A stretch of DNA of 64,000 bases from Allocoleopsis franciscana PCC 7113. GTDB lineage: Bacteria; Cyanobacteriota; Cyanobacteriia; Cyanobacteriales; Coleofasciculaceae. The DNA is taken from NCBI RefSeq assembly GCF_000317515.1, contig NC_019738.1, positions 3,498,001-3,562,000 of the forward strand, in the 5' to 3' direction. The position numbers and the translations under genes were made by a program. The notes below the pieces were generated by a model. The model was not told the DNA's origin. It worked only from the letters and a program-made list of their open reading frames with translations, and did no database searches. Shown here piece after piece: positions 1 through 56,275 of this stretch (positions are counted from its first letter, which is position 1; each line of letters starts with the position of its first letter).

Positions 1-759
1 ACGTTTTTGGGTACAGAATTACGCGACTTGACCCAACTCGATTCGATTATTACTGTTGTTGATGCCGAAACCTTTACGCCCGATCACTTCGATAGTGAAG
101 CCGCCTTCAAGCAGATTGCCTACGGAGATATCACGATTTTGAACAAAACCGATCTAGCAGATCCAGATCAGATTCAGAACCTGGAGGCTTACATTCGCAC
201 CGTCAAAGAATGTGCCAGAATTCTTCATAGCCAGCATGGAAAGGTTCCACTACCGTTGATTCTGGATGTAGGTTACAACAATCCGGAAGCCTATGCTGAT
301 TTAGTTCAGGAAGAGATTGAGCAATCTCAGCACGATCGCGACCATCATTCGCACGATCATCATGAAGATCACACCCATCATCCCCATGAACACCATCATC
401 ACCATTCGCACGATCATCATGAAGATCACACCCATCATCCCCATGAACACCATCATCACCATTCCGATCATCTAGATAATGATGGATTTGTGTCGATCGC
501 CTTTGAGAGCGATCGCCCTTTTGATGTCCACAAGTTTGAATCGTTCCTGCAAGAACAATTGCCCCAGGAAGTCTTCCGGGCAAAAGGAATCCTCTGGTTT
601 GCTGACAGCGAGTTGCGCCATATCTTTCAACTGAGTGGTCCGCGCTTTGACATTCAGGCAGAAGAGTGGCGGACTTCACCCAGTAATCAACTTGTGTTTA
701 TTGGGCGCAATCTGGATGCAGAGAACCTGCGGCAAAACCTGAAGCATTGTCTTGCCTAA
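1..759 (+). CDS. COG0523 (CobW/ZNG1-like) GTPase, 5' end outside window
   Basis: C-terminal 252 codons of a COG0523 GTPase, a family of GTP-driven metallochaperones for zinc or other metals. The frame is open from base 1, so the P-loop and CxCC motif lie upstream of the window. Seen here are the NKTD guanine-specificity motif, a His-rich linker (about residues 110-152) and the CobW C-terminal domain with the AKGILWF signature. The linker holds an exact 57-bp tandem duplication. The next genes, folE, a second COG0523 gene and hisI, encode zinc enzymes or their helpers, which points to a zinc-starvation role. The exact client protein cannot be told from sequence. Confidence 0.9.
   Translation, partial: TFLGTELRDLTQLDSIITVVDAETFTPDHFDSEAAFKQIAYGDITILNKTDLADPDQIQNLEAYIRTVKECARILHSQHGKVPLPLILDVGYNNPEAYADLVQEEIEQSQHDRDHHSHDHHEDHTHHPHEHHHHHSHDHHEDHTHHPHEHHHHHSDHLDNDGFVSIAFESDRPFDVHKFESFLQEQLPQEVFRAKGILWFADSELRHIFQLSGPRFDIQAEEWRTSPSNQLVFIGRNLDAENLRQNLKHCLA
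346..459 (+). repeat. 57-bp exact tandem duplication coding a His-rich linker
   Basis: Two perfect copies (346-402 and 403-459), each coding 19 residues rich in His with Asp/Glu. The lack of any difference between the copies suggests a recent duplication or selection for more metal-binding histidines. Confidence 0.95.
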
Positions 760-860
760 TCGGAGTCTTTCAGTAGCTTTGCCGTCTGCTGGAGGTAGAG
801 CCATGCATACTCTGTGTCTCTACACCATACGGCTGGTTGTCATCTTACTTTAATTCACTC

Positions 861-1499
861 ATGACATTATCTATTTCACCGGACGATATCCGCAAGCAAA
901 CCATTAGCACTCAAGCCAAGTCTCCCGTTTCTGAAGAAGAAATGCGGCAAGCGGTTCGCACATTGCTATTGGGCATGGGTGAAGACCCCGATCGCGAAGG
1001 GCTTCGTGATACCCCCAAACGAGTAGTCAAAGCGCTCAAATTCTTAACCTCTGGCTACCACCAATCCCTAGATGAGTTGCTCAATGGGGCTGTTTTCCAT
1101 GAAGATGCCAACGAAATGGTATTAGTGCGCGACATTGATTTGTTTAGTTCCTGTGAGCATCACATTCTACCGATTTTGGGACGTGCTCATGTAGCTTATA
1201 TTCCCAATGGGAAAGTGATTGGCTTATCCAAAATTGCCCGAATTTGTGAAATGTATGCCCGTCGCTTGCAAGTACAGGAACGACTCACTGCACAAATTGC
1301 CGATGCTATTCAAGGATTGCTTAAACCGCAAGGGGTTGCCGTAGTCGTTGAAGCTACTCATATGTGTATGGTGATGCGGGGCGTGCAAAAACCCGGTTCT
1401 TGGACAGTGACAAGTTCGATGCAAGGCGTATTTGCCGACGATGCCAAAACCCGTCAGGAATTTATGGATTTGATTCGTCACAGACCATCCTTCCACTAA
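861..1499 (+). CDS. folE: GTP cyclohydrolase I (zinc-dependent, type IA)
   Basis: Converts GTP to dihydroneopterin triphosphate, the first step of folate/pterin synthesis. The 212-residue protein covers the whole FolE domain. Zinc ligands are visible: Cys98 and His101 in SSCEHH, and Cys169 in THMCM. The ATG at 861 is preferred; an in-frame TTG at 837 would add eight unconserved residues. It lies between two COG0523 GTPase genes and is followed by a terminator, so it probably ends the first transcription unit. Cyanobacteria are known to place an extra folE in Zur-controlled clusters; this copy keeps its zinc ligands rather than being the metal-flexible FolE2 type. Confidence 0.93.
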
Positions 1500-1516: not shown

Positions 1517-1555
1517 GAGGCAGTGGTTTTCTAGTCCACCATTGCCTCTTTTTTT
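1517..1555 (+). terminator. Rho-independent terminator after folE
   Basis: An 11-bp stem (1517-1527 with 1538-1548, one G-T pair) is followed by seven T. It lies 17 bases after the folE stop and before the next start codon, so the second COG0523 gene probably has its own promoter. Confidence 0.85.
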
Positions 1556-1586
1556 CAGTTCAATTGCTGAGTTCCGAGCTGAATTT

Positions 1587-2561
1587 ATGTTAGATACTCT
1601 TGCCACTTCATCTGATAAACTACCCGTAACTATCATTACAGGCTTTCTCGGCAGTGGTAAAACAACATTGTTGAATTACATCCTGCAAAATTTTGACAAC
1701 TATAAAGTTGCTGTTTTAGTCAATGAGTTTGGCGATATCAACATAGACAGTCAGTTCTTGATTGGTGTTGAAGAAGACATGATCGAACTGACGAATGGCT
1801 GTATCTGCTGTACAATTAACGACAATCTGACAGAGGCAGTTTATCGAGTATTAGAACGACGCGATCGGATTGACTATCTGATTGTTGAAACCACAGGTGT
1901 GGCTGACCCGTTACCGATTGCGCTGACCTTTTTAGGAAAAGACTTGCGAGACCTAACTCAGTTGGATGCAATTTTAACGCTTGTGGATGCAGAAACATTT
2001 ATATCTGAAGCATTAAACAGTGAAGCGGCAAATCGGCAACTCATGTATGGAGACATGATTTTGCTCAATAAAATTGATTTGGTTGCCGAGGCTGATCTCA
2101 ACACCATAGAAACTCATGCTCGTGCTATTAAACAGGGAGCAAAAATTCTGCGATGTGAGTATGGTAGAGTTCCACTATCGCTAATTTTAGATGTTAATTT
2201 TTCTGAGTCAGGTTCCTCTGAGCAAGTGCTGAGTGCTCCCCAGTCAGGAGCATCAAATCATTTGGCAAACGATGGGTTTATGTCGGTGTCGTTTCAGAGC
2301 GATCGCCCGCTTGCCATGAAAAAATTTCAACAGTTCCTCGACTACCGACTGCCCGATAATGTGTTTCGAGCAAAGGGTGTTCTTTGGTTTGCCGAAAGCC
2401 CAAAACGTCACTTATTTCAACTGAGTGGCAAGCGATTCACCATTGATGACAGTGAGTGGACAAAAACTCCCAAAAATCAACTCGTGTTGATTGGACGTAA
2501 GCTTGACCCGCTTTTTTTGCAACAAACGCTGAATAACTGTCTAACTCGCCAACAGGTATGA
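1587..2561 (+). CDS. COG0523 GTPase (putative zinc metallochaperone)
   Basis: Complete 324-residue COG0523 protein. The Walker A motif GFLGSGKTT is at residues 19-27, the metal-binding GCICC motif at 71-75, the NKID motif follows, and the CobW C-terminal domain has AKGVLWF. Unlike the copy at the window start, its linker is not His-rich. The ATG at 1587 is chosen because the longer frame starts inside the terminator of folE. Its stop overlaps the hisI start by 4 bp (ATGA), implying translational coupling. COG0523 members coupled to zinc-enzyme paralogues are thought to deliver zinc to clients when zinc is scarce; HisI is an obvious candidate client. Confidence 0.9.
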
Positions 2562-2959
2562 ACCAGACTATGCTGTGGATAGAGCAATTAAAATTTAACG
2601 AGAGGGGACTGATTCCGGCGATCGCCCAGGACTATCAAGACAATACCGTTTTGATGATGGCTTGGATGAACCGCGAATCGATTCAGCGAACCTTAGAAAC
2701 AGGAGAAGCTCATTACTGGAGCCGTTCGCGTGCAGAACTGTGGCATAAAGGTGCAACTTCTGGACACATTCAAAAAGTCAAAGCGTTTTATTACGATTGT
2801 GATGCCGATACACTTCTATTGAAAATTGAGCAGGTGGGTAATGTTGCCTGCCATACAGGGGCAAGAAGCTGTTTCTTTAATTCAGTTTCACTTCCAACGA
2901 TTGAGTTCAGCGGATTTTGCGAGCAGAAGAAGACTTGGAAACTTAACCGAAACTTGTGA
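2558..2959 (+). CDS. hisI: Phosphoribosyl-AMP cyclohydrolase
   Basis: Third step of histidine biosynthesis: opens the purine ring of phosphoribosyl-AMP. The 133-residue protein lacks the HisE part, as expected for a stand-alone HisI. Mg ligands Asp80, Asp82 and Asp84 and zinc ligands Cys81, Cys98 and Cys105 ([11 protein letters not shown]) are all present. It overlaps the COG0523 gene by 4 bp. The context suggests a zinc-stress paralogue; a housekeeping his gene is expected elsewhere in the genome but cannot be checked here. Confidence 0.92.
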
Positions 2960-3029: not shown

Positions 3030-6000
3030 TTACTCTACCTCTTCACTCCCGCTCTCCGCTGTATCCTCGATCTCGTCGGTTTCATCCTCTTCAGAGCTTG
3101 ATGCACTACCTAAAATTCGCTGGCGATCGCTTGGCTCGGTAATCCCATACAAATCCAACACCTTCTCGTCAATTTCTGCATCGATCTGAGCAACTTCATC
3201 GAGCAGAGTTTGAATCTCGGTGCGACGTTGCTGTTCAGCGGTAAAAAAGGTGTTGAGATCAGGGGCTTCATAGGGCAGAGTCACCTGATTTTTAATCTCA
3301 TCCCAGGTTTTGCCTTGCCATTGGGGACGTTTTAAGTAGCCGAGGAGATAACGACGAATGTTGTCATCTTCAATGACAAGCCAAAGTTTGTTATGGCGTA
3401 ATACAACACTGGTAGGATAGCGATCGGGTGTATAGACATTGCTGCTTATCGAAACTTGCAAATCACAGCGATCGGGAATGGTAAATAACCCTGCGGCTTT
3501 CGCATCAAACAAAGTTAATGTTGAAAAGTTGGGATTTCCTTGTTGAACTTCGGCTAAAAGGCGATTGTAGGGAATCTCAATTAGTGTATTGCCATCCCGT
3601 TGTTTACGAATGACATAACCCTGTTCTCGAAATTCATTGAGTTGAGCGTTTTTGGAGAGAATGCGATCGACTTTCTCAACTAAATCTGCTTGAGTTTCAG
3701 CATCAGCAGGATAGATAGGTAGTTGTCGAAAATAAGCAGGATTGATCGTTACTTGATCATTTCTTCTTCGATACCAAAAATTTAAGAGAGATGAGTTTAA
3801 GAGAGCTAAAATATATTTCAAATTGTAACTTGGATCGGAAGCAATAATTACGTTATAGTTCTCCCTTACATAAAAGTCTTGATTATCATAGGCAGCAACT
3901 AAACGACGTTTTAATGCTCGATTGCGGAATCTTATAACAATTATTTTTGGTTGCTCAAAGTACCTTGATTCACGAGCACGCCATAGCCAATTTCCATAAT
4001 GGATATAGTTCTTTAAACTACCCCAACGTAAAGAGTAACGTCCAATAGAACTATTGCTATCAAGTAAAGGTTTCCAATCTGGATCACTTGGTGGAATATT
4101 ACGCCGATTTCTAATATGGTTGCTTGTTCTTCTTTGTTCTTTTCCCTTGTAAGGAATAATTCCTTGATTACTTTCTGTTACATCTTCTAATTTCAACACT
4201 CTTGTACTAGCCCCATTCCTATTAACAGAGATACGGCAAGCATCTTCGATTAACTGCATTAGTGAGTCATAACGAATATCGATTTCCCATCTTTGATTGC
4301 TTATCCATCGAGATTGTTCTTGGACAATAATTTCATCCCAATCCCTAGCTATCAGCTTATCGAGAGTATCGCGCAGTTCGAGGATATAAATCTGAGGTTG
4401 TTGTTCTATACGTCTCTGTTCATCACTATCCTTTGTTATAAATATCAATACACAGTCAACATTAGCGTCCGACCATATTCCTTGTGGTAAGTCTACTATT
4501 TGCTCAATACGTCCTGCATCTAATAACTCCTTGCGTAAAGTGGCAGTATTCGTACCCATTAAATAAGTATTCGGTGTAATGAAACCAAGCTTGCCTCCAA
4601 TTCCTAAAAGCTCAATCCCAAGCTTGAGAAAGAAAACATAAGTGTCAGGTTGACCAAAGAATACGTCTGAGTAATCCGATCTCAGCACAACCTTATATTC
4701 ATCACTTAAACTTGCACCATAAGGTGGATTAGCTACGACAAAAGCAAAACCATTGGAATAGGGAGTGTTGGGCGATCGACTTTTAATTTGATCCACCTGA
4801 TCGCTTTCTTCTGCAATCAACGTATTAAACATTAGAGAACGGTAGGTTCCCGTCGGTCGCGCCAGAGCATCGACATTGTAAATATGGAAGCGTTGAATTT
4901 TGGGGCGTTGCCCCTTGTCATGTGCCAGCTTGACCAGATCTAAGACCTGAATCAGCAAATTGACTTCGGATAAGTAACAGGCAAACGGATTGAGATCGAA
5001 CCCATAAAGGTTGTTTTGCACACGATCCAGCACCGATGCCGGATCGTCAATTTGGTTAGCATTGCCTTTATAGGTTTCGACTAATCGTTTTGCCGCTGCC
5101 ACCAAAAACGAACCGCTTCCACAAGCCGGATCAATCAGGCGTTTGTTAGCTCCAATAATGCCTGCACCAGTCCGATAGCCCACCTCATCCAAAATATAAT
5201 TGACGATTTCTGGAGGGGTGTAATATTGTCCCTTCTCCTTCTTCTCCTTGCGGTTGACATAGGTGCTGTAAACGGTTCCAACAATATCCGAATCAACCCC
5301 AGCAAAGTTGAAGCGACTGAGTTGGTGCAGTGTCATCACCAACTGTTGTTGATCCAACAAAAACCAGTTAAATAACTCTCGTCCTGTAAAAAAGTGGGCG
5401 TAGATGTTTTGGGCATTGTTGTATGCCATATCTAACAACGGGCTGTAGGGATTGCCTGTCGCAAACACCCAGTAACGTTCGATATTTTCTTGCCAATTCT
5501 TAACTCCACCATCTGACACAAACCGATGGGGAAAAACGCCTTTATCCTCACAGACTCGAATCAACAACAGCCGAATGAAAACAACATACGCTGCTTGCAA
5601 AGCAAATTCATCCTGTCGTTGAGCTTCCTCTAATCCTCCCAACATGGTTTCCTGCACCAAAGCAGTCCAAACCGTGTAGTCATCATGCACTCGAATGTCT
5701 ATCTGATAGGTCTGCCGGAGAGTGGACTGTCGCTGATGCCACGTAAACACCTTCTCAACGTAGGGCTTGAGAGCATCATTGAGTGGCGTGTATCCTCCCT
5801 CTAACGTTGATGGTGCCCTGGGTGGTCTTGCCTGGTTCGCATGTTTCTGCTGAAATGCCTGAGTCAAAATTGCCAGAATTTCAGTAAATAGCTCTTTGGG
5901 GCTGATGTAAGCTCTGGCATCCTGTTCCAATCGTAAGAAGATTGCTTCGATCGTGGCTCGATCATCAGAACTCAAATCAACCAAGCTTTGAATCTGATTC

Positions 6001-6872
6001 AGGCTTGTTAAAACCCGCTCTCGCAATCGCTGAATTTCTTGAGTTGCCGTCTCTACGGCATCATCAGTAATGCGGTTTGCCTTATCCTGATACTCCGCAT
6101 AACGAGTTAAATGGTTCGCCAGCAATCGTCTCGCATTGCGCTGAAGTTCCAAAACAAGCGACTGCAACGCTTCCACCAATATAGGTTCGTTGCCGCTCTC
6201 ATCTCCTAAAGGCAATGCCTGCCGTTGCCATGCTTCCTCATCCAGTGCCAGATCTGCTTCTAATCGTTGCAGACTGGTGAAAGCTTCTTTACGAAATAGA
6301 TCAAATAAATCATGGAGTGCCTGGTTTATTCCATCTGATAAGGTCGGTGCTCCTCCCTGATTCCATTCCTGAATTGCTGTTGAAATATCAAGATCAACAA
6401 GGCGTTGAGGGTTATCAGGATCATCAAATTTCCATGCCGTTAACTGCTTACCATTCAGCAACCAGCCCAACCGCACACCCCTCATATAGCCTCTAAGTTG
6501 AGAGAGATGGCTATTGGGATCACTTAAATCAAGAGTTAGTGCCAGGGATGTACTCTTGTCCTCCACGATGAAGCACGTCCCATATACGGGATCAGTGGGA
6601 GCAAAGTCAGGACGGTCGCCCAAATGTTGCTGGTTATAAACCCGCTCCCCAGCCTCAAAGCCCAGTAGACCTAAAAGGGGACTGGCGATCGCTGTATCAA
6701 CAATCGATGCCTCGTCTCCACTTCGTTGAGCATCCGAGCGATTCAGATAACTCAGAAAATCAGCACCACGAAAACTTCTTTGGGTGAAAATGCCAAAGAA
6801 TGCAGTCAAAAATTCGTCAAAGGTTGTTGGATGAGTCATAGCCTGTCGATTATAACCAGGCATCGCAAACAC
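3030..6872 (-). CDS. Type IIG restriction-modification enzyme (Eco57I-like)
   Basis: A 1280-residue single-chain restriction endonuclease plus adenine methyltransferase. Near the N-terminus is a PD-(D/E)xK-like motif (Asp89 in RPDF, Glu104 and Lys106 in VEDKS). The methyltransferase core shows DPACGSGSF (SAM binding, about residue 580) and NPPYG (catalytic, about 716). A target-recognition region follows, and the C-terminus is acidic. The start could also be the Met 12 residues in (MTHPTT). No partner gene is next to it, as expected for type IIG. It interrupts the zinc island on the opposite strand, so it is probably a separate acquisition; its recognition site cannot be predicted. Confidence 0.88.
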   Translation of the reverse strand: MFAMPGYNRQAMTHPTTFDEFLTAFFGIFTQRSFRGADFLSYLNRSDAQRSGDEASIVDTAIASPLLGLLGFEAGERVYNQQHLGDRPDFAPTDPVYGTCFIVEDKSTSLALTLDLSDPNSHLSQLRGYMRGVRLGWLLNGKQLTAWKFDDPDNPQRLVDLDISTAIQEWNQGGAPTLSDGINQALHDLFDLFRKEAFTSLQRLEADLALDEEAWQRQALPLGDESGNEPILVEALQSLVLELQRNARRLLANHLTRYAEYQDKANRITDDAVETATQEIQRLRERVLTSLNQIQSLVDLSSDDRATIEAIFLRLEQDARAYISPKELFTEILAILTQAFQQKHANQARPPRAPSTLEGGYTPLNDALKPYVEKVFTWHQRQSTLRQTYQIDIRVHDDYTVWTALVQETMLGGLEEAQRQDEFALQAAYVVFIRLLLIRVCEDKGVFPHRFVSDGGVKNWQENIERYWVFATGNPYSPLLDMAYNNAQNIYAHFFTGRELFNWFLLDQQQLVMTLHQLSRFNFAGVDSDIVGTVYSTYVNRKEKKEKGQYYTPPEIVNYILDEVGYRTGAGIIGANKRLIDPACGSGSFLVAAAKRLVETYKGNANQIDDPASVLDRVQNNLYGFDLNPFACYLSEVNLLIQVLDLVKLAHDKGQRPKIQRFHIYNVDALARPTGTYRSLMFNTLIAEESDQVDQIKSRSPNTPYSNGFAFVVANPPYGASLSDEYKVVLRSDYSDVFFGQPDTYVFFLKLGIELLGIGGKLGFITPNTYLMGTNTATLRKELLDAGRIEQIVDLPQGIWSDANVDCVLIFITKDSDEQRRIEQQPQIYILELRDTLDKLIARDWDEIIVQEQSRWISNQRWEIDIRYDSLMQLIEDACRISVNRNGASTRVLKLEDVTESNQGIIPYKGKEQRRTSNHIRNRRNIPPSDPDWKPLLDSNSSIGRYSLRWGSLKNYIHYGNWLWRARESRYFEQPKIIVIRFRNRALKRRLVAAYDNQDFYVRENYNVIIASDPSYNLKYILALLNSSLLNFWYRRRNDQVTINPAYFRQLPIYPADAETQADLVEKVDRILSKNAQLNEFREQGYVIRKQRDGNTLIEIPYNRLLAEVQQGNPNFSTLTLFDAKAAGLFTIPDRCDLQVSISSNVYTPDRYPTSVVLRHNKLWLVIEDDNIRRYLLGYLKRPQWQGKTWDEIKNQVTLPYEAPDLNTFFTAEQQRRTEIQTLLDEVAQIDAEIDEKVLDLYGITEPSDRQRILGSASSSEEDETDEIEDTAESGSEEVE

Positions 6873-7114: not shown

Positions 7115-8062
7115 TCACTTCTCCAAAGGCTGTTGAATCACTAAACCACTACCTCGCTGTCGAGTCCCAGGATTGATGCTAAACAGACGCACATATTGAT
7201 GTGGATAACGTTGTAGAAGTTGTGCTACTGCGGCGATCGCCTCCTCTTCCTGCGTCACTTTAATCACGCCACAATCTGACCAGGAATTTGCTCGAAATCG
7301 TCGTGTATCCGCCTGTTCCACCCCAATATAAAACTTCTGGCTCAACACATCTCGAATCCAGGCGATCGCTTGAGCATCGAAGCGCGAGGATGGGCGATGT
7401 CCATTGCTAGAACCAGGCTGAACGGTTGGGGGTCCGTTTGGTTCATTGCGAAGGGTGGCGATGCAAACCTCATCTTCGGCACAGAGATAGCCCTGACGCA
7501 GTTTTTGATTAATGCTCACTACATGACGGGCAAACTCTGAATCTACTTCTTGCACATTGGGTAAATGATCGGCTTGTTGGGGGTTGGTAATGATTGAGCC
7601 AGATGCGATATATTTGCCCGCCGGAATTTCTACATTCTCGATTAGTGCATGGGACATAACGATACAACCATCCCCAATACGAGCGTTAAATACAGTTGAA
7701 CGGAAGCCAATAAAGCAACCGTTTCCCACGTAAGCAGGGCCGTGAATTAAAGCCATGTGCGTAATCGAAGCGTTATCGCTAATCCACACGGAGTAAAGCT
7801 GTCCATCATCCCCGATGACTCGTCCCTGTTCCAATCCGTGAATCACCGCTCCATCTTGAATGTTCACATTCGTACCAATATAAAACGGCATTCCTTCGTC
7901 GGCTCGAATCGAGACACCGGGAGCAATGTGAACCTGCTCTCCAATCCGCACATCCCCAATCACGTTGGTCAGAGGGTGGATATAGACGGTGGCATCTATG
8001 GTTGGCTCAGCGAGTTGTTGTGACCAGGGGGTTGGTGGGGCAGGGATGTTGTACATAGTCAT
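7115..8062 (-). CDS. Short CcmM-like protein: gamma-carbonic-anhydrase domain plus one RbcS-like module
   Basis: 315 residues. The N-terminal left-handed beta-helix (about 20-200) matches the gamma-carbonic-anhydrase domain of carboxysome CcmM, with candidate zinc histidines in VIHG and [10 protein letters not shown]. The Cys pair CAEDEVC resembles the disulfide that controls CcmM activity. A single RbcS-like (SSUL) module follows (about 230-310); ordinary CcmM has three to five. It is divergent from cysS with a Fur/Zur-type box 6 bp from its start, so it is probably a zinc-responsive CcmM paralogue. Whether it enters carboxysomes or acts as an enzyme is unknown. Confidence 0.85.
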
Positions 8063-8067
8063 GTTAA

Positions 8068-8086
8068 AATGAGAGTGATTATCATT
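8068..8086. promoter_or_regulatory. Zur-type operator between ccmM-like and cysS
   Basis: A 19-bp imperfect palindrome, AATGAGAGTGATTATCATT, matches its reverse complement at 14 of 19 positions and resembles the cyanobacterial Zur box (TGATAATnATTATCA). It lies 6 bp before ccmM-like and about 50 bp before cysS, so one operator could control both directions. Confidence 0.75.
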
Positions 8087-8137
8087 CTAAGCATTACTGG
8101 AATACTTGATCCAAACCTCGACAATCCAAAATTTGCG

Positions 8138-9625
8138 ATGAGCCTCACTCTATACAACACATTGACTCGCCAAAAAGAGCCGTTCAAAACGATTGAACCC
8201 GGTAAAGTCACGATGTATTGCTGTGGGGTAACAGTATACGACTATTGCCATTTGGGTCATGCCCGGTCTTATATCGGCTGGGATGTAGTGCGGCGTTATT
8301 TGCAATGGCGGGGTTATCAAGTACGGTATGTGCAGAACTTTACCGATATTGATGACAAAATTTTGAATCGGGCTAGAGTTGAAGGCAGCTCGATGCCAGA
8401 AATTGCCGATCGCTACATCAATGCCTACTTTGAGGATATTCGGCGGTTGAACGTCATGGATGCGGATGAGTATCCCCGTGTCACCCAACATATCCCAGCG
8501 ATTGTTCATCTCATCCAAGCACTGGAAACAAAAGGCTATGCTTACGCTGTGAATGGCGATGTTTACTACAACGTGCAGCAGTTTTCGGAGTATGGCAAAC
8601 TCTCTGGACGAAAAAGAGAGCAGATGCAAGCTGGGGCAGGTGGACGCATTGACCCAGGCGAAGCAGAGGACAAAAAACAAGACCCTTTTGATTTTGCACT
8701 GTGGAAAGCTGCCAAACCAGGGGAGCCTGCGTGGGATTCTCTTTGGGGCAAAGGACGACCTGGGTGGCATATTGAATGCTCGGCAATGATTCGTGCCCGA
8801 TTGGGTGAGACAATTGATATTCATGGCGGTGGGGGAGATTTGGTGTTTCCCCACCATGAAAATGAAATCGCTCAATCAGAAGTGCTAACAGGTAAGCCCT
8901 TGGCTCGATACTGGCTACACAATGGCATGGTGAGAGTGAATGGGGAGAAGATGTCTAAATCGTTAGGGAACTTTACGACCATTCGAGATTTGTTAGACGG
9001 TAAATGGTCAGAGTATCCGCAGCCGATTGATCCAATGGTCGTCAGGTTATTCGTTTTGCAAGCTCACTATCGTAAGCCCTTAGATTTTACTGAATCAGCC
9101 ATTACCGCCGCTGTTCATGGCTGGCAAACCCTCAAAGATGCGCTGAATTTAGACTTAGCTAAATGCAATCTATCGCCACAAGCTACGATTCTTGATGAAT
9201 TGGACTCACAGGCGATTGCGAAGCGCAGCAGCGAAGCGCTGATCGCCCGTTTTCAAGCGGCAATGGATGATGACTTTAATACGGCGGCTGGATTAGCGGT
9301 GTTGTTTGAGTTGGCAAAATCCCTAAAACGAGAGTTTAATCAGCGTTGCTATCAAGGGTCTCAGGAACTTGAGGATGTACACTTACGTGCTTTATCGCAG
9401 ACGTTGATACAGTTTGCTGGGGTGTTGGGTTTAGAGGTTCAAGCCGAAACCTTACCTGTACCAGAGATTAATGTGAATTGGATTGAATCGCTACTGCAAC
9501 AACGGCATCAAGCACGCCAAGAAAAACGCTATGCCGAGAGCGATCGCATCCGTAATGAACTGCAAGCAGTGGGCATTACCTTGATTGACGGGTCTGATGG
9601 ACAAACCCGTTGGCATCGCTCTTGA
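8138..9625 (+). CDS. cysS: Cysteinyl-tRNA synthetase
   Basis: Charges tRNA-Cys. 495 residues, full length, with the HLGH (38-41) and KMSKS motifs. Zinc-site residues are present: Cys in [10 protein letters not shown], Cys in GWHIECSA and His-Glu in FPHHENE. ATG 8138 is chosen; an upstream GTG would overlap the operator. Codons near 9211-9247 form an in-frame copy of a dispersed GCGAT-rich repeat ([10 protein letters not shown]) not usual in CysRS. Probably a zinc-starvation duplicate given the operator and neighbours. The WD40 gene follows after 13 bp. Confidence 0.93.
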
Positions 9626-11315: not shown

Positions 11316-11838
11316 TTACCTCGCGATGCATTCTGCTAATTGTTGTCTAATCGCGTCTGCATTCAACGTTCGTCCAATGAAAACGAGTTGGTTACAACTT
11401 GGTAGGTGAGAACGTTCGCTTTTCAAGTCACATCGCTTACCAGTAAGTTGAAACACATGGCGTAACTGACTCCCCTGAAACCAGAGAATGCCCTTTGCTC
11501 GATAAATATTAGGTGATAAATTATCAATAAAAATTTGAAACTTGGACAGATTTAAGGGACGATCGATTTCAAATGAAACTGCCATAAACCCATCATTCTC
11601 CAGATGGTGAGAATGATGCTCGTGATGCTCTTGCTCCAGATGGTGAGCGGCTGATGTAATACTTTGATAGAGGCTAGACTCGTTAAAGTTGACATTCAAA
11701 ATTAGTGGCAATGGCACCTGTGCATATTGTGTTTGGATAACTCTAGCGCCTTGCTTAAAGGAACGAATATAGGCTTCTAGTTCATCAACTTGCTTAGGTG
11801 TCACTAAATCAGTTTTATTTAAGAGAATAATATTTTTG
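11316..11838 (-). pseudogene. COG0523 GTPase, 3' fragment
   Basis: A third COG0523 copy lacking its front. The frame keeps ILLNKTDLV (G4 motif), a short His-rich linker and the C-terminal domain with AKGILWF, but the P-loop and CxCC region are gone. Matching sequence starts near 11838, next to AT-rich DNA with a stop codon in frame. It is closest in layout to the copy at the window start. It is probably a deletion remnant and cannot bind GTP normally. Confidence 0.85.
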
Positions 11839-11993: not shown

Positions 11994-12593
11994 TTAGTTA
12001 GATAGAAACTTGGTGCTGCCTACACACCTAACCCAAACTAGATGCCCTAGAGCTAAGGAAATCGTCCATATCATCTCCTTAAGAAAGAGATGAGCCAAAA
12101 TCGATAAGGTGATACTATGTTCGTTTCCAAGTAATGTACCAAAAAGCAAAATCAGGCTTTCAAACAAGACGAATCCAGCAATTAAAGCCGTTCCTAGCCA
12201 GAGGAAATGACCGCCCATTCTTTCCCGACTGAACCGAGGCTTGATGGTGGCTAGTAAGGTTACTAGAAGCGTTCCCAACCCCATAATTAAACCCCAAACA
12301 AAAGAATCAGTTGTCTGAGGATAATTGCGGAGGGTGTACCCCCAAATTTGATTGACCAACCAGATGATTGAAATTGCTTTCACTGCCTGTGTCGGCTTCA
12401 GAGTCGTGCCTGCTACAGTCGCAAAGCTGACCAAAGGGGGGTGCGGATAAACTACACTACTGGCACTACCCAGGACAGTGAGCAGAAGAACCCAAAGACG
12501 GTTTTGTGCAACAGTAGACCAAGCCAATTTCCATCCTTTAGGTTTGACTGCGCGTACTGGAGCAAGGGGAGTTTTTGTGTGATTCATGGTCAT
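11994..12593 (-). CDS. Unknown integral membrane protein
   Basis: 199 residues with about five predicted membrane segments (around 30-50, 72-90, 95-115, 128-152 and 162-185) and a basic N-terminus. I do not recognise the family. It starts 22 bp after the FeoB-like stop, so it is the last gene of the thrS-flavoprotein-feoB-like run. Its place suggests an accessory subunit of the FeoB-like transporter; no metal-binding motif is evident. Confidence 0.6.
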   Translation of the reverse strand: MTMNHTKTPLAPVRAVKPKGWKLAWSTVAQNRLWVLLLTVLGSASSVVYPHPPLVSFATVAGTTLKPTQAVKAISIIWLVNQIWGYTLRNYPQTTDSFVWGLIMGLGTLLVTLLATIKPRFSRERMGGHFLWLGTALIAGFVLFESLILLFGTLLGNEHSITLSILAHLFLKEMIWTISLALGHLVWVRCVGSTKFLSN

Positions 12594-12615: not shown

Positions 12616-14283
12616 CTAGAAGTGGTTGATTGAGTACTCAAATAGGGCGCTGCCCCAAACGAGAAGCAGCGAAAAGCTAACGGCTGCAACAACTTGCTGG
12701 CTCAAAAGCTTTAGAGCAAAGCGCCAAGATACCTCGCGCACAATCGTTAAAAGAGTGACAAGGCAAGGCAGAATTACACCTGCCAGGTAGACTCCAGTGA
12801 GAATCTGCAAGGGGGTCAAAGCCGCCAAAGTATTCGGTTGGGTAAAGAGCAAAATGCCATCTTTGCGAATGGAGGCAAGCACTACGGGTAAAGCGGCTTC
12901 AGCCGGAAGGCGAAACAATCCCATTACAGGACTAAGGACACCAGAGAGGGCAGAAAGAACGCCCAGCCAGTCGAGTAGCGAAGCAATAATTGTAATTCCC
13001 AAGAAGATAGGGATTGCCTGGAGAAAGAATTGAGATAGGGTGCTGCGGGCTTCGCGCCAGATGGCAATCGGGCGGGGCAATTCCAGGAAGCTACGCCCTT
13101 CAACGAGCAACTTATTTAACGGCGATCGCGCTTTTTTGGGTGCTGTCAGTCGAGTGTAAATTAAGGTTGTCACCGTGAGATAGAGCAAATAGGGGACAAC
13201 CAGATAAGGCAGCTTTGCCGCAGCAAACACGCCGAGGGTTGCCCCGAACTGGTAGGAGCAAGCTGAACCAAATGCGATCGCAGAAATACAAGTTCCCCGC
13301 GAACAACTAGAGCAAGCCCTGGTGCTAATTACTGCCGGGACGTTGCAACCGAAACCCATAATCACCCGTACCAAGTCACGGCCACTTAGCCCAAAGGGAA
13401 GCATTAGCGGGTGCATCGCCACTGTGATGCGATCGATCAAGCCACTCGCTTTGTAAGCACCAAGAAACAGAGCGTACAGCACAATCGTGGGGATTGCCCA
13501 GACGAACAGCAACGGCCCCATCGTCACGAGTCCATATCTACCAACAAGAATTTCCCGTAATAAGGACGGCAGCAGGCTAAGTTGCTCCACTAATGGCTTC
13601 ACCAAAGCCTGTACTGGCGGATCGACTAGCGCCGCCAACGTGTTAGCACCCCAGACAGCGATGATGGCAGGCAATAAAAGCAGCAAAATTGCTCCAATCG
13701 GTCCCCAGTAACGATGTTCCAATAACGTTGGTGGTGGCTCAATCCGCCAGTCAATGCGTTCTGGTGTAAACTCTTGGGTAAAGGTTCTGGGAGATGAAAG
13801 AGCCTCTAGAATCTGGACGCGATCGCTCGCACTCAGATGACGGGCATCCACAGGGATGAAACCAATCCCGGAACTCTGGCGGAGACGTTCGAGTACTTGC
13901 ATGGCTTCTGCTTTAGCTCGTACCTTATCCCAAAAGGTAACAGCCACGACTCCCCGCTTGCCTTGAACCAATGGGAGTAACTCCGCTAAATCCTCGTCGA
14001 TATGAGTAGCTTGCACTACAAGCAGCACGGTATCTGTTTCTGGCAAACGGTTCAGCACTACTGCCGTCGTCACGCTATCAGACTGGCGCAAAATCCCAGG
14101 CGTATCGACAAAGGTGCGATCGCCGTCCCGATAGGTTTCACAAGCCACGGTAGTACCCCGAAAATTCGAGCTATAGGCTGGCTTTTGGGTAAGAGAGGCA
14201 ATTAACTGGGATTTGCCAACGCTTTCTTTACCGATCGCAACGATGGCAGTGTGGGTAGAGAGTTGTCCAGTAACTTGGTTCAT
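12616..14283 (-). CDS. FeoB-like metal transporter with reduced G domain
   Basis: 555 residues. A short N-terminal G domain has a P-loop (GKESVGKS, 18-25) and DTPG (60-63), but the NKxD motif is replaced by TFWDK. Then come about eight membrane helices with the Gate/FeoB signature GFGCNVPAVISTRA near residue 310, followed by an unusual cluster (CSSCSRGTC). True FeoB is about 700-800 residues and takes up Fe2+. This shorter form lies in a transcription unit headed by a Zur-type box before thrS, so zinc or another divalent metal is a plausible substrate. No feoA gene is adjacent. Confidence 0.8.
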   Translation of the reverse strand: MNQVTGQLSTHTAIVAIGKESVGKSQLIASLTQKPAYSSNFRGTTVACETYRDGDRTFVDTPGILRQSDSVTTAVVLNRLPETDTVLLVVQATHIDEDLAELLPLVQGKRGVVAVTFWDKVRAKAEAMQVLERLRQSSGIGFIPVDARHLSASDRVQILEALSSPRTFTQEFTPERIDWRIEPPPTLLEHRYWGPIGAILLLLLPAIIAVWGANTLAALVDPPVQALVKPLVEQLSLLPSLLREILVGRYGLVTMGPLLFVWAIPTIVLYALFLGAYKASGLIDRITVAMHPLMLPFGLSGRDLVRVIMGFGCNVPAVISTRACSSCSRGTCISAIAFGSACSYQFGATLGVFAAAKLPYLVVPYLLYLTVTTLIYTRLTAPKKARSPLNKLLVEGRSFLELPRPIAIWREARSTLSQFFLQAIPIFLGITIIASLLDWLGVLSALSGVLSPVMGLFRLPAEAALPVVLASIRKDGILLFTQPNTLAALTPLQILTGVYLAGVILPCLVTLLTIVREVSWRFALKLLSQQVVAAVSFSLLLVWGSALFEYSINHF

Positions 14284-14308
14284 CGCTGTCTATAAAAGAA
14301 CTCAGCCA

Positions 14309-15448
14309 TTAACAAACACAGTCATTGCTACAGCAAGAAAGGTCATCAAGAAATAAACCCTGTTCGCGGTAAACCTGCAAAGGTGAGGGATCTAAACCCA
14401 AACGTTGTGCGATCGCATCAGCCACCACTGCAAACCGCTGCCGGAATTTATAGATAAAACAGAAAATGATATCCTCGTGACGCACAGAAGGTCCAGCAAC
14501 GAATAACCCTGGAGTCCGGGTCGATTCATCGCATTCATTCAGTACAGCATGTCCGTCAGACCAATGAAACAAATGAGCAATGGTACTGAGACTGCCCTTA
14601 AAACCCGTACACAGAATAGGAGGCGTGGGACTCATCCACTGGCGATACTGAATACCCTCATTACCTTGCGCCCCGACGACAACATAACCGTTGTTGTCGC
14701 GCTTGACTCCCACAATGTCAGTATTCCCAATTAGTTCAAGGCGACCTGTAGCATAGACAAACTCCAAGCGCTGTAGTGTGTAAGGAGACAAAGAGATGCT
14801 CGGATCGGGGTTATTGGATGCCCAACTTTTAGCGCGATCGATTACTCCCACTCGTTTTCCCAAAGCAACTAAATTGGTGGCGGCATCCATTCCGCTTTCA
14901 TAACCGCCAATCACAATAAACTCATCCCCCTGCATCTCGTCCCAGGAGCGTACCTGAGTATTATGAATGCACAAATCGGCACCGGGAAAGGGATCGAGGC
15001 GCGGATACTGAAATTCTCCTGCCGCCCAAATGACAAAGCGGCTTTGAACATCGCCTTGGGAAGTTTTGAGGATAAACCCTTTTTCTCCTGGTAGTGTTTC
15101 AATATCGTGAACCTCAATGCCCGTTTTTACCGGAAGCTGAAAATGCTCGACAACCGTTTGTAAATAGAGGGCATACTCCTTACCCGTTAGGTGTTCTCGT
15201 CGAAAAGCTAGAGCTGGGGAGGTATTTAGAGCGATCGCATTCAGGTCGAGTAACCCAAAGCCGTGACTGGGAAACGACGGGGTAATAAATCGCATTTGTG
15301 CGGGCCAGCGATTAAAAGATGCTCCCACTTCATGGCGCTCTAACAGGATAAAATTTTGGAGTCCTAAATCTTTGAGAACGACCCCACAACCGACCCCCGC
15401 CGCACCCGCACCGACAATAACTACATCCAAGATTTGAGAAGAATTCAT
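14309..15448 (-). CDS. FAD/NAD(P)-binding oxidoreductase with Cys-rich tail
   Basis: 379 residues. GAGAAG at 13-18 binds FAD; a second dinucleotide site (VIGGYESGMDAA, about 184) suggests NAD(P)H binding; layout resembles flavin monooxygenases and thioredoxin-reductase-like proteins. The last eight residues, CCSNDCVC, hold five Cys and could bind metal or pass electrons. It sits 40 bp after thrS and 25 bp before feoB-like, in one run on the minus strand, so it probably shares the thrS promoter. A role in reducing a metal or thiol for the transporter is inference. Confidence 0.78.
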   Translation of the reverse strand: MNSSQILDVVIVGAGAAGVGCGVVLKDLGLQNFILLERHEVGASFNRWPAQMRFITPSFPSHGFGLLDLNAIALNTSPALAFRREHLTGKEYALYLQTVVEHFQLPVKTGIEVHDIETLPGEKGFILKTSQGDVQSRFVIWAAGEFQYPRLDPFPGADLCIHNTQVRSWDEMQGDEFIVIGGYESGMDAATNLVALGKRVGVIDRAKSWASNNPDPSISLSPYTLQRLEFVYATGRLELIGNTDIVGVKRDNNGYVVVGAQGNEGIQYRQWMSPTPPILCTGFKGSLSTIAHLFHWSDGHAVLNECDESTRTPGLFVAGPSVRHEDIIFCFIYKFRQRFAVVADAIAQRLGLDPSPLQVYREQGLFLDDLSCCSNDCVC

Positions 15449-15488
15449 TACAGCTATTAACTAGAAGTCTATTCTCCAACTTGACAGG

Positions 15489-17360
15489 TTAAAGCGTCGA
15501 TTTCTCTTCAATCGCTCCTTGCAGACAAGCTTGCAATTCAGCTAAAGTTAGCGTTCCTAACTCTCCCCCCTTCCTTGTCCGCACACTCAGAGTTTGATTT
15601 TCTACTTCCCGTTTACCGACTACAGCAACAACGGGAATTTTCTCTAACTCTGCATTGCGAATTTGCTTGCCCAAACGCTCTCCACTGCGGTCAATCTCAA
15701 CCCGATACCCAGTTTTTTTAAGCGTGGTGGCAACTGATTCTATATACTCTCGTTGGTCATCGCTCACGGGTAACAGACGCACCTGAATGGGGGCTAACCA
15801 CAAGGGGAAATCACCTGCATAATTCTCAATTAAAATCCCAAAAAAGCGTTCCAAAGAGCCAAAAATTGCTCGGTGAATCATAATCGGTTGTTGCCGAGTT
15901 CCATCAGCCGCCACATATTCTAGTTTGAATCGTTCAGGTAAATTGAAATCAACTTGAATGGTCGAACATTGCCACAAACGACCAATGGCATCTCGAATCT
16001 TAAGGTCAATCTTGGGTCCATAGAACGCGCCACCCCCCACATCTTCAATATAATTCCAACCTTTGGCAGTTAAAGCTTGTTTTAAAGCTGTTGTTGCTAA
16101 CTCCCAAACTTCATCGGCGCCAACAGATTTAGCCGGACGAGTGGACAAATTTACTTCATAATCTGTAAAGCCAAAATCTGATAAAATTTGCTCGGTTAGA
16201 TTCAGCACTCCTAAGATTTCATCGGCAATTTGGTTCGGTAAACAGAAGATATGAGCATCATCTTGGGTGAATCCTCTGACGCGCATCAAACCATGCATAA
16301 CTCCCGATCGCTCGTAGCGGTAAACAGTGCCTAATTCAGCAAAGCGCAAGGGAAACTCGCGGTAAGAATGCAGGTCGTGCTTATAGGTTAGAACATGGAA
16401 GGGGCAGTTCATCGGCTTAATTTGATAAGCCACATCTTCAATCTTCATCGAGTCAAACATATTCTCTCGATAAAAATCAAAGTGTCCCGATGTTTTCCAC
16501 AGTTCCAGATTCGCGATATGGGGTGTGTAAAGGAGTTGATAACCCGCTTCTAGGTGAGATTTTTTCCAGTAATCTTCAATAATGTTGCGTATCGCTGCGC
16601 CACGCGGATGCCAAAAAACTAAACCACCGCCAGCATCGTCTTGGATACTAAAGAGTTTGAGGTCTTGACCAATTTTTCTATGGTCGCGCCGCTTGGCTTC
16701 TTCTTTTTGTTGAAGGTAAGCAGAAAGTTGTTCGGGTGTTTCCCAAGCTGTACCATAGATGCGTTGCAACTGAGGTTTGGTTTCATCTCCTCGCCAGTAA
16801 GCACCCGCAACAGTTTCTAAGGCAAAAGCATCGGGATTGATTTCTCCAGTGAAGTTGACGTGAGGACCGGAACACAAATCCCACCAGTAAGCTTCAGGAG
16901 GTATTGTTACTTGTTCAAACAGCGTCGGTTCTGATTGATTAGCATCAATGACACCCTTACCGTGGTCAGGGTTGCCGATAAAGTAGCGGGTAATGGTTTC
17001 TCCGTCAGGGATACTGTCGAGGATTTCCAGCTTGTAGGGTTCCCCTAACTGCTCAATTTCCGCACGAACCTCCTCCCGATCTACAACTTCGCGGATAATC
17101 GGCAAGTTAGCGTTGATAATCTGACGCATTTTGGCTTCAATGCGGCTCAAGTCATCCGGGGTAAAGGGTTGTTGGCGATCGAAGTCGTAGTAAAATCCGG
17201 TGTCTGTGGTGGGGCCAATCGTTACTTTTGTCTGTGGGAGGAGAGTTTGCACTGCCATTGCCAAGATGTGAGCGCAGGTGTGACGAATTCGCTCTAGTTT
17301 TTGCGGGTCATCTTGGCGGAGGCTGTTCTCAGACGGAGATTGAGTTAATTGACTGACCAT
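15489..17360 (-). CDS. thrS: Threonyl-tRNA synthetase (with editing domain, no TGS domain)
   Basis: 623 residues. The N-terminal TGS domain is absent, but the editing domain is present: HTCAH (27-31) and CSGPH. The catalytic core has zinc ligands in MNCPFH, DDAHIF and MIHRA, and an anticodon-binding domain closes the protein. Anabaena has two ThrRS, one of them induced by zinc shortage; this gene's Zur-type box 14 bp before the start fits that role. It heads the minus-strand run leading to the flavoprotein and the FeoB-like gene. Confidence 0.93.
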   Translation of the reverse strand: MVSQLTQSPSENSLRQDDPQKLERIRHTCAHILAMAVQTLLPQTKVTIGPTTDTGFYYDFDRQQPFTPDDLSRIEAKMRQIINANLPIIREVVDREEVRAEIEQLGEPYKLEILDSIPDGETITRYFIGNPDHGKGVIDANQSEPTLFEQVTIPPEAYWWDLCSGPHVNFTGEINPDAFALETVAGAYWRGDETKPQLQRIYGTAWETPEQLSAYLQQKEEAKRRDHRKIGQDLKLFSIQDDAGGGLVFWHPRGAAIRNIIEDYWKKSHLEAGYQLLYTPHIANLELWKTSGHFDFYRENMFDSMKIEDVAYQIKPMNCPFHVLTYKHDLHSYREFPLRFAELGTVYRYERSGVMHGLMRVRGFTQDDAHIFCLPNQIADEILGVLNLTEQILSDFGFTDYEVNLSTRPAKSVGADEVWELATTALKQALTAKGWNYIEDVGGGAFYGPKIDLKIRDAIGRLWQCSTIQVDFNLPERFKLEYVAADGTRQQPIMIHRAIFGSLERFFGILIENYAGDFPLWLAPIQVRLLPVSDDQREYIESVATTLKKTGYRVEIDRSGERLGKQIRNAELEKIPVVAVVGKREVENQTLSVRTRKGGELGTLTLAELQACLQGAIEEKSTL

Positions 17361-17373
17361 AAATCAATATAAA

Positions 17374-17392
17374 AATAATAATCATTCTCATT
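17374..17392. promoter_or_regulatory. Zur-type operator before thrS
   Basis: On the minus strand AATGAGAATGATTATTATT, a near match to the 8068 box (AATGAnAnTnAnTnTCATT with one end mismatch). It lies 14 bp before the thrS start, a position where binding would block transcription. Confidence 0.72.
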
Positions 17393-17468: not shown

Positions 17469-17868
17469 CTACAAAGAATGGAGTTGTTGCGAACACTCAG
17501 GACACAAACCAAAAAATTCGAGTGTGTGATAGTAGACCTTGAAGGATAGCGACTTACACCAAGTCGCCGCCATGTGGCAGACAGGGCAATCTTCAACAGG
17601 AATCGACTGACCGCAACGAACACAGGTTAAGTAGTGTCGTTGTTCTGCCCTGACTAGGCTGTAGAGAGACTTACCTGAGTTGAGGGTTCTCGCCTGAATC
17701 ACTCCCTCTTTTTGGAGTGCTTTCAATATGCGATAAATCGTTGCTAATCCCAAACTTTGATTTTGATGGCGCAGCTCAATATAGAGTTCTTGAGCGCTGA
17801 TGAAAGCGATCGAGCTGTTTGAGGAGCGTGAGGATTCGCTCCTGACTACTGGCTTGTCGAGCTGGCAT
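17469..17868 (-). pseudogene. zur: Fur-family regulator, probably Zur, with N-terminal frameshift
   Basis: Residues after the break match cyanobacterial Zur: a winged helix (SAQELYIELRHQNQ, then LGLATIYR), a structural zinc site (CVRCGQ and CPEC) and YYHTLEFFGLC. The expected N-terminus (MPARQASSQERILTLLKQLD) starts at ATG 17868 in another frame and meets the main frame at about 17805, at a TTT run, so one extra base appears inserted. The remaining frame could start only at a TTG (17876) with an unrelated first 25 residues. The region CPVCHMAATWCK is also unlike relatives. If real, zinc repression may be lost; a sequencing error is the alternative. Confidence 0.7.
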
Positions 17869-17946
17869 AGAGACAACGCTTGTAAGGGAGTATTCGGTAC
17901 AACTTAAAGTTTCATGACTTGAGCGAACGTTTCCCTCAAGTATTAG

Positions 17947-17963
17947 ATAATGATTATCATTAT
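17947..17963. promoter_or_regulatory. Fur/Zur box, 8-1-8 palindrome
   Basis: ATAATGATTATCATTAT is perfectly palindromic apart from its centre base. It lies 79 bp before the zur start and 54 bp before the hemB remnant on the other strand, so it may once have controlled both. Confidence 0.85.
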
Positions 17964-18091: not shown

Positions 18092-18268
18092 GCAAATTCA
18101 ACACGCTTGAGGGAGATTTCTACAGATTTTTTTGAGGATTAGACTGCGATGCGATCGCTTTCTGATTGCAATAAGGAACTTTCTCAAGAGCAGAGACAAC
18201 GAGTGCTTGGTTTCATCGAAGCTTACTGTAACCTGAATTTGGATAAGTCAATGTAGTTGGCGGGAAAC

Positions 18269-18787
18269 ATGAGACAGCTTACATTACTAATGTGCTTGTT
18301 TCTAACGGTCTTTGCTGTTGGGGTGCGTGCTGAAACTGAAACACCAGAAGAATGGGTAAGGCTGGGACGCCGCGTTCATGGGGGTTTCGGCACCTATGTC
18401 GTGGTGGGGATTCGGATTGGTCTTGATGCGATGAAACGTCTGGAAGCTTCACCACGCGATTTAGATGTAACTTACCAAGAGGGACTGCTCTCCCCTTGTC
18501 CCTGTGTTGTAGATGGCATCATGATTGCCACCGTCTCCACACCCGGACAAAACTCGCTGCGCGTTCTGCCGACAAGACGCGACCGGAACACCTTTGGCGT
18601 TGCGATTATTAAAAATAAGAAAACGGGACAAGCGTTACGTTATACCTTACCCAACTCGGTTCGCTCTCAACTTGATAGTTGGAACCAAAGTTTGACCGAA
18701 CGCCAGCGCTATGACGCAGTAATGAATGCACCTGCTGACTCTCTGTACATCGTGGAACCTTACGATGAACCAGGGAGCAAGTCATAG
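18269..18787 (+). CDS. Exported FmdE-like protein
   Basis: 172 residues from ATG 18269. A signal peptide (about 1-20, ending near VRA) is followed by a domain resembling the FmdE family: VHGGFGTYVVVGIRIGLDAM, then CPCVVDGIMIATVST. FmdE-like domains are small and often metal-binding; the reaction, if any, is unknown. It converges on the pentapeptide gene with one base between the stop codons. Its place beside the zinc cluster suggests a periplasmic metal-related role, which is inference. Confidence 0.6.
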   Translation: MRQLTLLMCLFLTVFAVGVRAETETPEEWVRLGRRVHGGFGTYVVVGIRIGLDAMKRLEASPRDLDVTYQEGLLSPCPCVVDGIMIATVSTPGQNSLRVLPTRRDRNTFGVAIIKNKKTGQALRYTLPNSVRSQLDSWNQSLTERQRYDAVMNAPADSLYIVEPYDEPGSKS

Positions 18788-36295: not shown

Positions 36296-36443
36296 CCGCC
36301 TTCAGGGGGTGACAATCGGCTCAAAAGATTGGTAGAGATTAGTTTTCATCCACTTGAGTTCTCAAAAAATCTTAGCTTATTGACAAGTTTATTGAGAATA
36401 GACTGGGGAGCCGACCTGTTCTCGATAATGATAATCATTGGGG
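36296..36443 (+). repeat. Inverted duplicate carrying a Fur/Zur box, copy 1
   Basis: About 145 bp, well conserved with the reverse complement of 56133-56275 (shared GACAATCGGCTCAAAAGATT and TTATTGAGAAT among others). It ends in the palindromic box. Confidence 0.85.
36424..36441. promoter_or_regulatory. Fur/Zur-type box in repeat copy 1
   Basis: ATAATGATAATCATT, with palindromic core AATGATAATCATT at 36427-36439. No gene start is near, so it may be a relic or part of a mobile repeat. Confidence 0.7.
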
Positions 36444-56132: not shown

Positions 56133-56275
56133 TCAAATGATTATCATTATCGAGAAGTGGGTAGCTCAAAAGTTCATTCTCAATAAACCTGTCAATAAGC
56201 TGTTATTTTTTGAAGACCCAACTGGATGAAAAGCAATCTCTGCCAATCTTTTGAGCCGATTGTCGCCCCATGAAG
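56133..56275 (-). repeat. Inverted duplicate carrying a Fur/Zur box, copy 2
   Basis: Matches 36296-36443 in reverse orientation over about 140 bp. The palindrome AATGATTATCATT is at 56136-56148. Neither copy has an open gene close by. Confidence 0.85.
56136..56148. promoter_or_regulatory. Fur/Zur-type box in repeat copy 2
   Basis: AATGATTATCATT, the same core as the box before zur. It lies about 105 bp after hypE and 285 bp before pfkA, so control of pfkA is possible but unproven. Confidence 0.65.

Follow-up and report, generated by a model that had tools for sequence, protein, structure and literature searches.

In a window of 64,000 nucleotides from the genome of Allocoleopsis franciscana PCC 7113 (contig NC_019738.1, positions 3,498,001 to 3,562,000; positions below are those of the window unless a locus is named), four genes follow one another on the minus strand: a threonyl-tRNA synthetase gene (thrS), a gene for a flavoprotein, a gene for a FeoB-like transporter, referred to here as FEOB-z, and a gene for a membrane protein (Table 1). 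The open reading frames, their order and strand, and the intergenic gaps of 40, 25 and 22 bp agree with a first-pass annotation of the sequence, which had tentatively read the four as one zinc-responsive importer unit with its own reductase, headed by a Zur-type palindrome. The palindrome is also present, 15 bp ahead of the thrS start and not 14 bp as given there. Our results retain part of this proposal. Judged by its recurrence in other genomes, the pair of flavoprotein and FEOB-z is the conserved core, found behind Zur-type boxes and in the window placed behind a thrS2-type gene, whereas thrS and the membrane gene are not supported as parts of one importer.

Scanning one genome of each species gave 61 loci, in 60 of which a close FeoB-like relative is encoded; the pair was counted in these 60 plus the window. 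In 57 of the 61, the flavoprotein gene shares the strand of the FeoB-like gene, and the distance between the two is usually no more than 250 bp and mostly no more than 1 kb. The pair was found in cyanobacteria, Pseudoalteromonas, SAR324, Verrucomicrobiota and Dadabacteria, and it occurs also in Paenibacillus, Pantoea and haloarchaea. Among 386 cyanobacterial genomes both proteins were present in exactly the same four, the other matches being ordinary FeoB or shorter Gate proteins with far weaker scores. Since thrS is near the pair in only five loci, the window included, and the membrane gene in only one other locus (L029), the conserved unit comprises the pair only, and the four-gene unit was rejected. 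The genome contains two thrS genes; the copy in the window is 73-75% identical to thrS of related zinc loci, a Zur box being present in three of these, and 53% identical to the other copy of its own genome. We therefore assign it, on sequence, to the known Zur-regulated thrS2 (ThrRS T2) type.

The search for the FeoB-like subfamily and its neighbours that the first-pass annotation had proposed revealed a neighbourhood conserved with zinc genes far beyond cyanobacteria, where a lack of any conserved neighbourhood would have spoken against the idea. With COG0523, hisI, gamma-carbonic anhydrase, cysS, thrS, znu and fur genes taken as zinc markers, at least one lies no more than 7 kb from the pair in 28 of the 34 cyanobacterial-type loci, 8 of the 13 Pseudoalteromonas loci and 11 of the 14 other loci. 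Across loci, the surrounding zinc-starvation genes are COG0523 (neighbours of the pair in 32 loci), hisI, gamma-carbonic-anhydrase-like genes, cysS, thrS, znuABC, zur and ribosomal-protein paralogues. Plasmid records show the same company. A Paenibacillus plasmid has the order COG0523-rpsN-flavoprotein-FeoB-like, with rpmG 1.4 kb downstream; a Haloferax plasmid has COG0523, flavoprotein-S14-FeoB-like, hisI and a metal ABC transporter; a Pantoea plasmid has thrS, carbonate dehydratase, folE2, dksA, COG0523, a Fur-family gene, cysS, the pair, a QueD-type gene and zigA; and an Acaryochloris plasmid has zigA and several Fur-family genes by the pair. These neighbours include zinc-free or zinc-regulated paralogues (rpsN, rpmG, S14, hisI, thrS, folE2, dksA, cysS, QueD-type, zigA). 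About 500 Klebsiella plasmid records also have a member of the FeoB-like clade, which is found as well in marine diazotrophs (Crocosphaera) and haloarchaea.

The Zur-type boxes point in the same direction, and together with the conserved zinc neighbourhood they bear out the zinc-responsive setting that had been suggested from the window. The box before thrS agrees with the cyanobacterial Zur consensus TGATAATNATTATCA at 12 of its 14 fixed positions. Five sites with at most two mismatches to this consensus lie in the window, against 0.31 expected in shuffled sequences, and none of 100 shuffles reached five. A box of at least 12/14 precedes the flavoprotein gene in 19 of the 22 cyanobacterial upstream regions that could be anchored automatically (0.06 expected from shuffles), and four further loci not anchored in this way (L006, L007, L010 and L012) also have one; its usual position in the cyanobacterial relatives is about 33 bp ahead of the flavoprotein gene. 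Boxes of other build precede the pair in Pseudoalteromonas, TGTTAT(A/G)TTATAACA (TGTTATATTATAACA or TGTTATGTTATAACA), in Pantoea, TATGTTATGTTATAACATA, and in a Thermodesulfobacteriota locus, TGTTATATTATAACG, as well as the operon of Paenibacillus, TAATCGTAATTATTACGATTA; we take those of the non-cyanobacterial lineages to be gammaproteobacterial and Bacillus-type Zur boxes. With the motifs tried, no Zur-type box was recognised ahead of the unit in Verrucomicrobiota, SAR324 or haloarchaea. That one and the same pair stands behind operators of different build in several lineages is hard to account for except by selection for zinc control. With a Zur box upstream of the transcription unit and an intact Fur-family gene (L133:7279-7698) encoding a Zur regulator in the genome, the pair is very probably repressed by Zur and derepressed on zinc loss.

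FeoB imports Fe2+ with GTP hydrolysis, and FEOB-z is a distant relative of it. All 33 aligned members match the FeoB equivalog TIGR00437 (best E 7.8e-38), and both have an N-terminal G domain, two Gate stretches (PF02421 and PF07670 in FeoB) with the GxGC...TR motif in gate 1 and the xPC motif in gate 2, and a CNT-type membrane fold. However, FEOB-z scores 109.7 bits against a curated cut-off of 315.65, a third of it, and is short, with about 555 residues. A maximum-likelihood tree placed 38 members, drawn from cyanobacteria, Bacillota, Gammaproteobacteria, Verrucomicrobiota, SAR324, Dadabacteria and haloarchaea, in one group (support 100/100), which a long branch separates from canonical FeoB and from Gate proteins that lack the GTPase. 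This separate clade also differs from FeoB in its Zur-type instead of iron context.

The structural model of FEOB-z (pLDDT 81.8) predicts a transporter fold together with a GTPase. Its G domain aligns to NFeoB 3iby (VIA Z 18.6, 165 residues), and its membrane part, residues 200-549, to CNT nucleoside transporters (VIA Z about 15, about 290 residues, root-mean-square deviation 4.7); the Foldseek matches listed cover the G domain only, the membrane part being found with VIA. As the first-pass annotation had remarked, the G domain is short and lacks NKxD. It has G1 as GKESxGKS, G3 as DTPG and G4 as TFWD, whose T116 and D119 are invariant in the 33 aligned members, so that guanine recognition may survive the altered G4; R148 in the G5 region is likewise invariant in the alignment. 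The GDI helical domain is not present in the model or in the alignment with canonical FeoB; in both, residues 165 and 190 are bridged by just a short loop. In gate 1, GLNGRAVIPLILGFGC...TTR...PCxAQ of FeoB corresponds to GLSGRDLVRVIMGFGCNVPAVISTRxCSxCSRxxC...ACSYQ of FEOB-z, and the CSSCSRGTC cluster noted earlier does follow the gate motif. Of the conserved gate cysteines, C313, C342 and C507 of gate 2 are common to FeoB, whereas C324 (invariant in the alignment), C327 and C332 are new in FEOB-z, as are D303 and R306. On chemical grounds the extra thiolates would suit a softer metal, for instance Zn2+, more than Fe2+. For a cysteine-rich C-terminal peptide of E. coli FeoB, the binding of Fe(II), Mn(II) and Zn(II) has been studied (PMC10647171); in the present pair it is the partner flavoprotein and not the transporter that ends in such a tail.

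The flavoprotein does end in CCSNDCVC, as noted at first. The four cysteines of this tail are invariant in 35 aligned members, the first being lost in Halocatena and Enterococcus, and nearly all members have the tail, Paracoccus included. The AlphaFold model is confident (pLDDT 90.7) except in the tail. The nearest solved relative is 3d1c of S. aureus, a 'flavin-containing putative monooxygenase' with full-length homology, and the two belong to the same family because of a profile E of 3e-120 and the same CC..C.C tail; the sources searched assign no function to 3d1c. YpdA/Bdr (TIGR04018) has the same overall fold but is a more distant relative, with 78.6 bits against a cut-off of 339.9 and a match that stops before the cysteine tail. 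No CxxC active site is present in the flavoprotein. A Zur target of Synechococcus 7002, the FAD-dependent oxidoreductase G0132 (PMC4628125), was considered as proof for the flavoprotein and rejected, because it belongs to another family (E 0.011). Separately, another FAD/NAD-binding protein (L089:20590-21855) is apparently this G0132, reported to be Zur-regulated, and a G0132 homologue (54% identical; L030:474-1682) is divergent from znuA with a Zur box in between.

Table 1. Features of the zinc-starvation island in the window.
Feature	Position	Strand	Remarks
COG0523 metallochaperone with His-rich stretch, zinc island	7..759	+	
folE, GTP cyclohydrolase I, zinc island	837..1499	+	PF01227
COG0523 metallochaperone, zinc island	1542..2561	+	
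hisI, phosphoribosyl-AMP cyclohydrolase, zinc island	2558..2959	+	PF01502
Gamma-carbonic-anhydrase-like (CcmM-like) gene, zinc island	7115..8062	-	Clusters with L041 gene having Hexapep and RbcS-like domains
cysS, zinc island; Zur-type box at 8070-8084	8069..9625	+	
5'-truncated COG0523 (CobW_C) remnant	11316..11804	-	PF07683 only
Membrane protein, no family match	11994..12593	-	
FeoB-like transporter (FEOB-z)	12616..14283	-	Pfam: FeoB_N and two Gate stretches (PF07670)
Added CSSCSRGTC cysteine cluster, FEOB-z gate 1 (residues 324-332)	13288..13314	-	
Predicted G domain of FEOB-z, residues 11-165 (GKESVGKS, DTPG, TFWD)	13789..14253	-	Model, VIA, alignment
Flavoprotein, Pyr_redox_3, YpdA/FMO-like fold	14309..15448	-	PF13738 326 bits; AlphaFold pLDDT 90.7; closest solved structure 3d1c
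Flavoprotein cysteine tail CCSNDCVC, residues 372-379	14312..14335	-	
thrS2-type threonyl-tRNA synthetase, second genome copy	15489..17360	-	TIGR00418 701 bits
Zur-type box TAATAATCATTCTCA before thrS	17376..17390	.	
Second zur-like gene, frame-shifted near 5' end	17469..17876	-	PF01475
Zur-type box AGATAATGATTATCA before zur-like gene	17945..17959	.	1 mismatch

The pair is located at one end of a zinc-starvation island of about 30 kb, since zinc genes fill both sides of the window start and the intact regulator resembles SynZur. Besides the four genes, the first 18 kb of the window contain two COG0523 genes, folE, hisI, the gamma-carbonic-anhydrase/CcmM-like gene, cysS and a COG0523 remnant. 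The 14 kb preceding the window contain a hemB paralogue divergent from the intact Fur-family gene, znuA, znuC, znuB, another COG0523 gene and Zur-type boxes. By gene content, these two parts are one island with an intact zur, which lies about 24 kb from the unit. The best solved relative of its product is by far 7ne9 (E 3.6e-31), an entry cited in a paper on SynZur, an experimentally proven cyanobacterial zinc sensor (PMC9337993). The zur-like gene directly upstream of thrS, on the same strand, also has 7ne9 as its best solved relative. Its protein start is in another frame than the remainder, which indicates a pseudogene or a sequencing error; in the first case it may be decaying while an intact zur lies some 24 kb off. 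The COG0523 remnant retains its His-rich stretch, and no P-loop GTPase domain was found in any upstream frame; close Symploca relatives (L006 and L007) have COG0523 genes nearby. The membrane protein had been called unknown, and it has no Pfam or NCBIfam match; its gene lies outside the interval annotated at first. Elsewhere its neighbours are DUF7676 and a TonB-dependent receptor; its own genome has another copy, which lies beside COG0523 genes.

Several further observations concern the island and its surroundings. The gene for the membrane protein is directly beside that of a DUF7676-type protein at L131:7084-8332 (confirmed) and, with similar sequence, at L128:5727-7264 and L130:6022-7534; a TonB-receptor-sized gene is adjacent in two genomes (confirmed in L128), which makes this a separate candidate metal-uptake cluster. 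A gene for a FmdE-domain protein (18257-18787) is divergent from the zur-like gene and has the intergenic region and box in common with it. Between hisI and the gamma-carbonic-anhydrase-like gene, a large protein with an NPPYG adenine-methyltransferase motif (3030-6872) looks like an insertion into the island. The relative of the gamma-carbonic-anhydrase-like gene at L041:12238-13173 has an RbcS-like C-terminal domain, in a short CcmM layout, and such genes in zinc loci behind Zur-type boxes may represent a variant of a carboxysome protein for use under zinc starvation. An OprB/SLH-type porin gene (L133:4496-6448) has a 13/14 Zur-type box upstream and is a candidate zinc-controlled outer-membrane porin. 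Beyond the island, two more Zur-like boxes (12/14) are found at 36423-36437 and 56138-56152, and a gene with a CobW_C domain lies near 34.5 kb.

Much of this company is already known. The presence of thrS2, hisI, COG0523, CysRS and gamma-carbonic anhydrase paralogues in Zur regulons has been described (PMC2770081, PMC6103462, PMC4787780). In Anabaena, a Zur-repressed promoter lies directly before thrS2 (PMC4787780), and the thrS2 operon, like the present locus, is beside other zinc-starvation genes (PMC4787780, PMC6103462). However, the genes named in these two papers, the original operon papers being outside the comparison, include neither a FeoB-like protein nor this flavoprotein. The COG0523/zinc clusters of Haas et al. 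2009 (PMC2770081), including that of plasmid pLVPK, have the same set of HisI, Cam, ThrRS, CysRS and COG0523 under Zur, whereas the main text names neither FeoB nor a flavoprotein in these clusters. FeoB also goes unmentioned in the zinc-cluster, ZepA and Synechococcus 7002 papers, and a full-text literature search, with most subscription papers outside its reach, found no description of either protein as a Zur target. What appears to be new here is the recruitment of a FeoB-derived subfamily to zinc starvation.

We consider it rather probable that the pair is a conserved Zur-repressed zinc-starvation module, in which FEOB-z imports a divalent metal, most likely Zn2+, in a GTP-linked manner with the flavoenzyme as its partner. 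Under zinc sufficiency, Zur would repress the module. In the zinc-starved cell, FEOB-z would be produced. With its CNT/FeoB-type gate domain in the membrane and a small GTPase domain at the N-terminus, it would act as a transporter, the metal passing through a path with more cysteines than that of FeoB. Zinc as the cargo is speculative, though on balance we favour it. The direction would be import, because Zur represses uptake or sparing genes, and GTP binding or hydrolysis would presumably drive or gate transport. The flavoprotein would be an NAD(P)H/FAD enzyme of the cytosol, and its flexible tail of cysteines may keep the gate cysteines reduced or may accept the metal from the transporter, a speculative role that we put forward tentatively. 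Several findings weigh against this reading as a whole. The box of the window is an imperfect match, and five Pseudoalteromonas loci show no zinc marker within 7 kb. C332 is replaced by Thr in haloarchaea and C327 is lost in SAR324, so that the full cysteine cluster is not indispensable. FEOB-z is the sole Gate-family protein in its own genome, and as its FeoB relatives carry Fe2+, this leaves room for an iron role. Finally, there is a flavoprotein but no FEOB-z partner in Paracoccus, where it lies beside a zinc ABC transporter (azt), a Fur-family gene, COG0523 and cysS, and in Enterococcus, where no zinc context is visible; the flavoprotein is therefore a partner in most loci but not an obligate one.

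These points bear on different alternatives. That a housekeeping FeoB came to lie next to thrS by chance, behind an accidental palindrome, could appeal to the imperfect box, but the box statistics, the independent lineages and the zinc neighbours refute it in silico, and we give it next to no weight. The solitary flavoprotein genes in Paracoccus and Enterococcus, along with the FMO/YpdA-like fold lacking CxxC, would fit an enzyme of zinc starvation that acts on its own, such as a monooxygenase or a zinc-free substitute, and is merely co-regulated with the transporter; this would be compatible with the transporter part of our proposal and has somewhat less than an even chance, as the adjacency in nearly all loci over two domains of life and the identical phyletic pattern in 386 genomes speak against it. 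Alternatively, Zur may control an importer of a substitute metal, Fe2+ (or Co2+ or Mn2+), that metallates alternative enzymes in zinc-starved cells, the flavoprotein being perhaps a ferric or flavin reductase that provides the Fe2+. The FeoB ancestry, the GFGC gate motif and gate-2 cysteine common to FeoB, the absence of another Gate protein from the genome and the neighbouring folE and hisI paralogues of zinc enzymes are in line with this. We nevertheless regard it as unlikely, given that the three added cysteines and the charged gate residues D303 and R306 are unlike Fe2+-type FeoB, that the neighbours are mostly zinc-handling genes (COG0523, znuABC, aztABCD-type loci) and that a cytosolic enzyme reducing Fe3+ would be of no obvious help to uptake. 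Still less probable is a membrane-bound GTPase metal relay that would work with COG0523 GTPases to hand zinc from the cytosol on to clients that are secreted or lie in the membrane, while the flavoprotein would reduce metal-binding thiols: the frequent COG0523 neighbours and the cysteine-rich sites on both partners would suit it, whereas the CNT-like transport fold and the conserved gate motifs favour a transport path. The import module itself could be extended to a new class of zinc importer, GTPase-coupled and FeoB-derived, with a dedicated flavoenzyme that controls or relieves its cysteine gate by redox chemistry, and passed between bacteria and archaea as a mobile component of zinc-starvation islands, a version that we find rather doubtful.

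FeoB homologues are annotated and counted as iron transporters, and in public plasmid records the members of this clade are labelled 'nucleoside recognition domain-containing protein' or 'ferrous iron transporter B', whereas the evidence from context points to zinc. If our proposal is true, the FeoB fold would also serve zinc nutrition, and a GTPase-linked kind of zinc importer would be added to the ABC, ZIP and NRAMP types. Surveys of iron uptake that count every feoB would then need correction.

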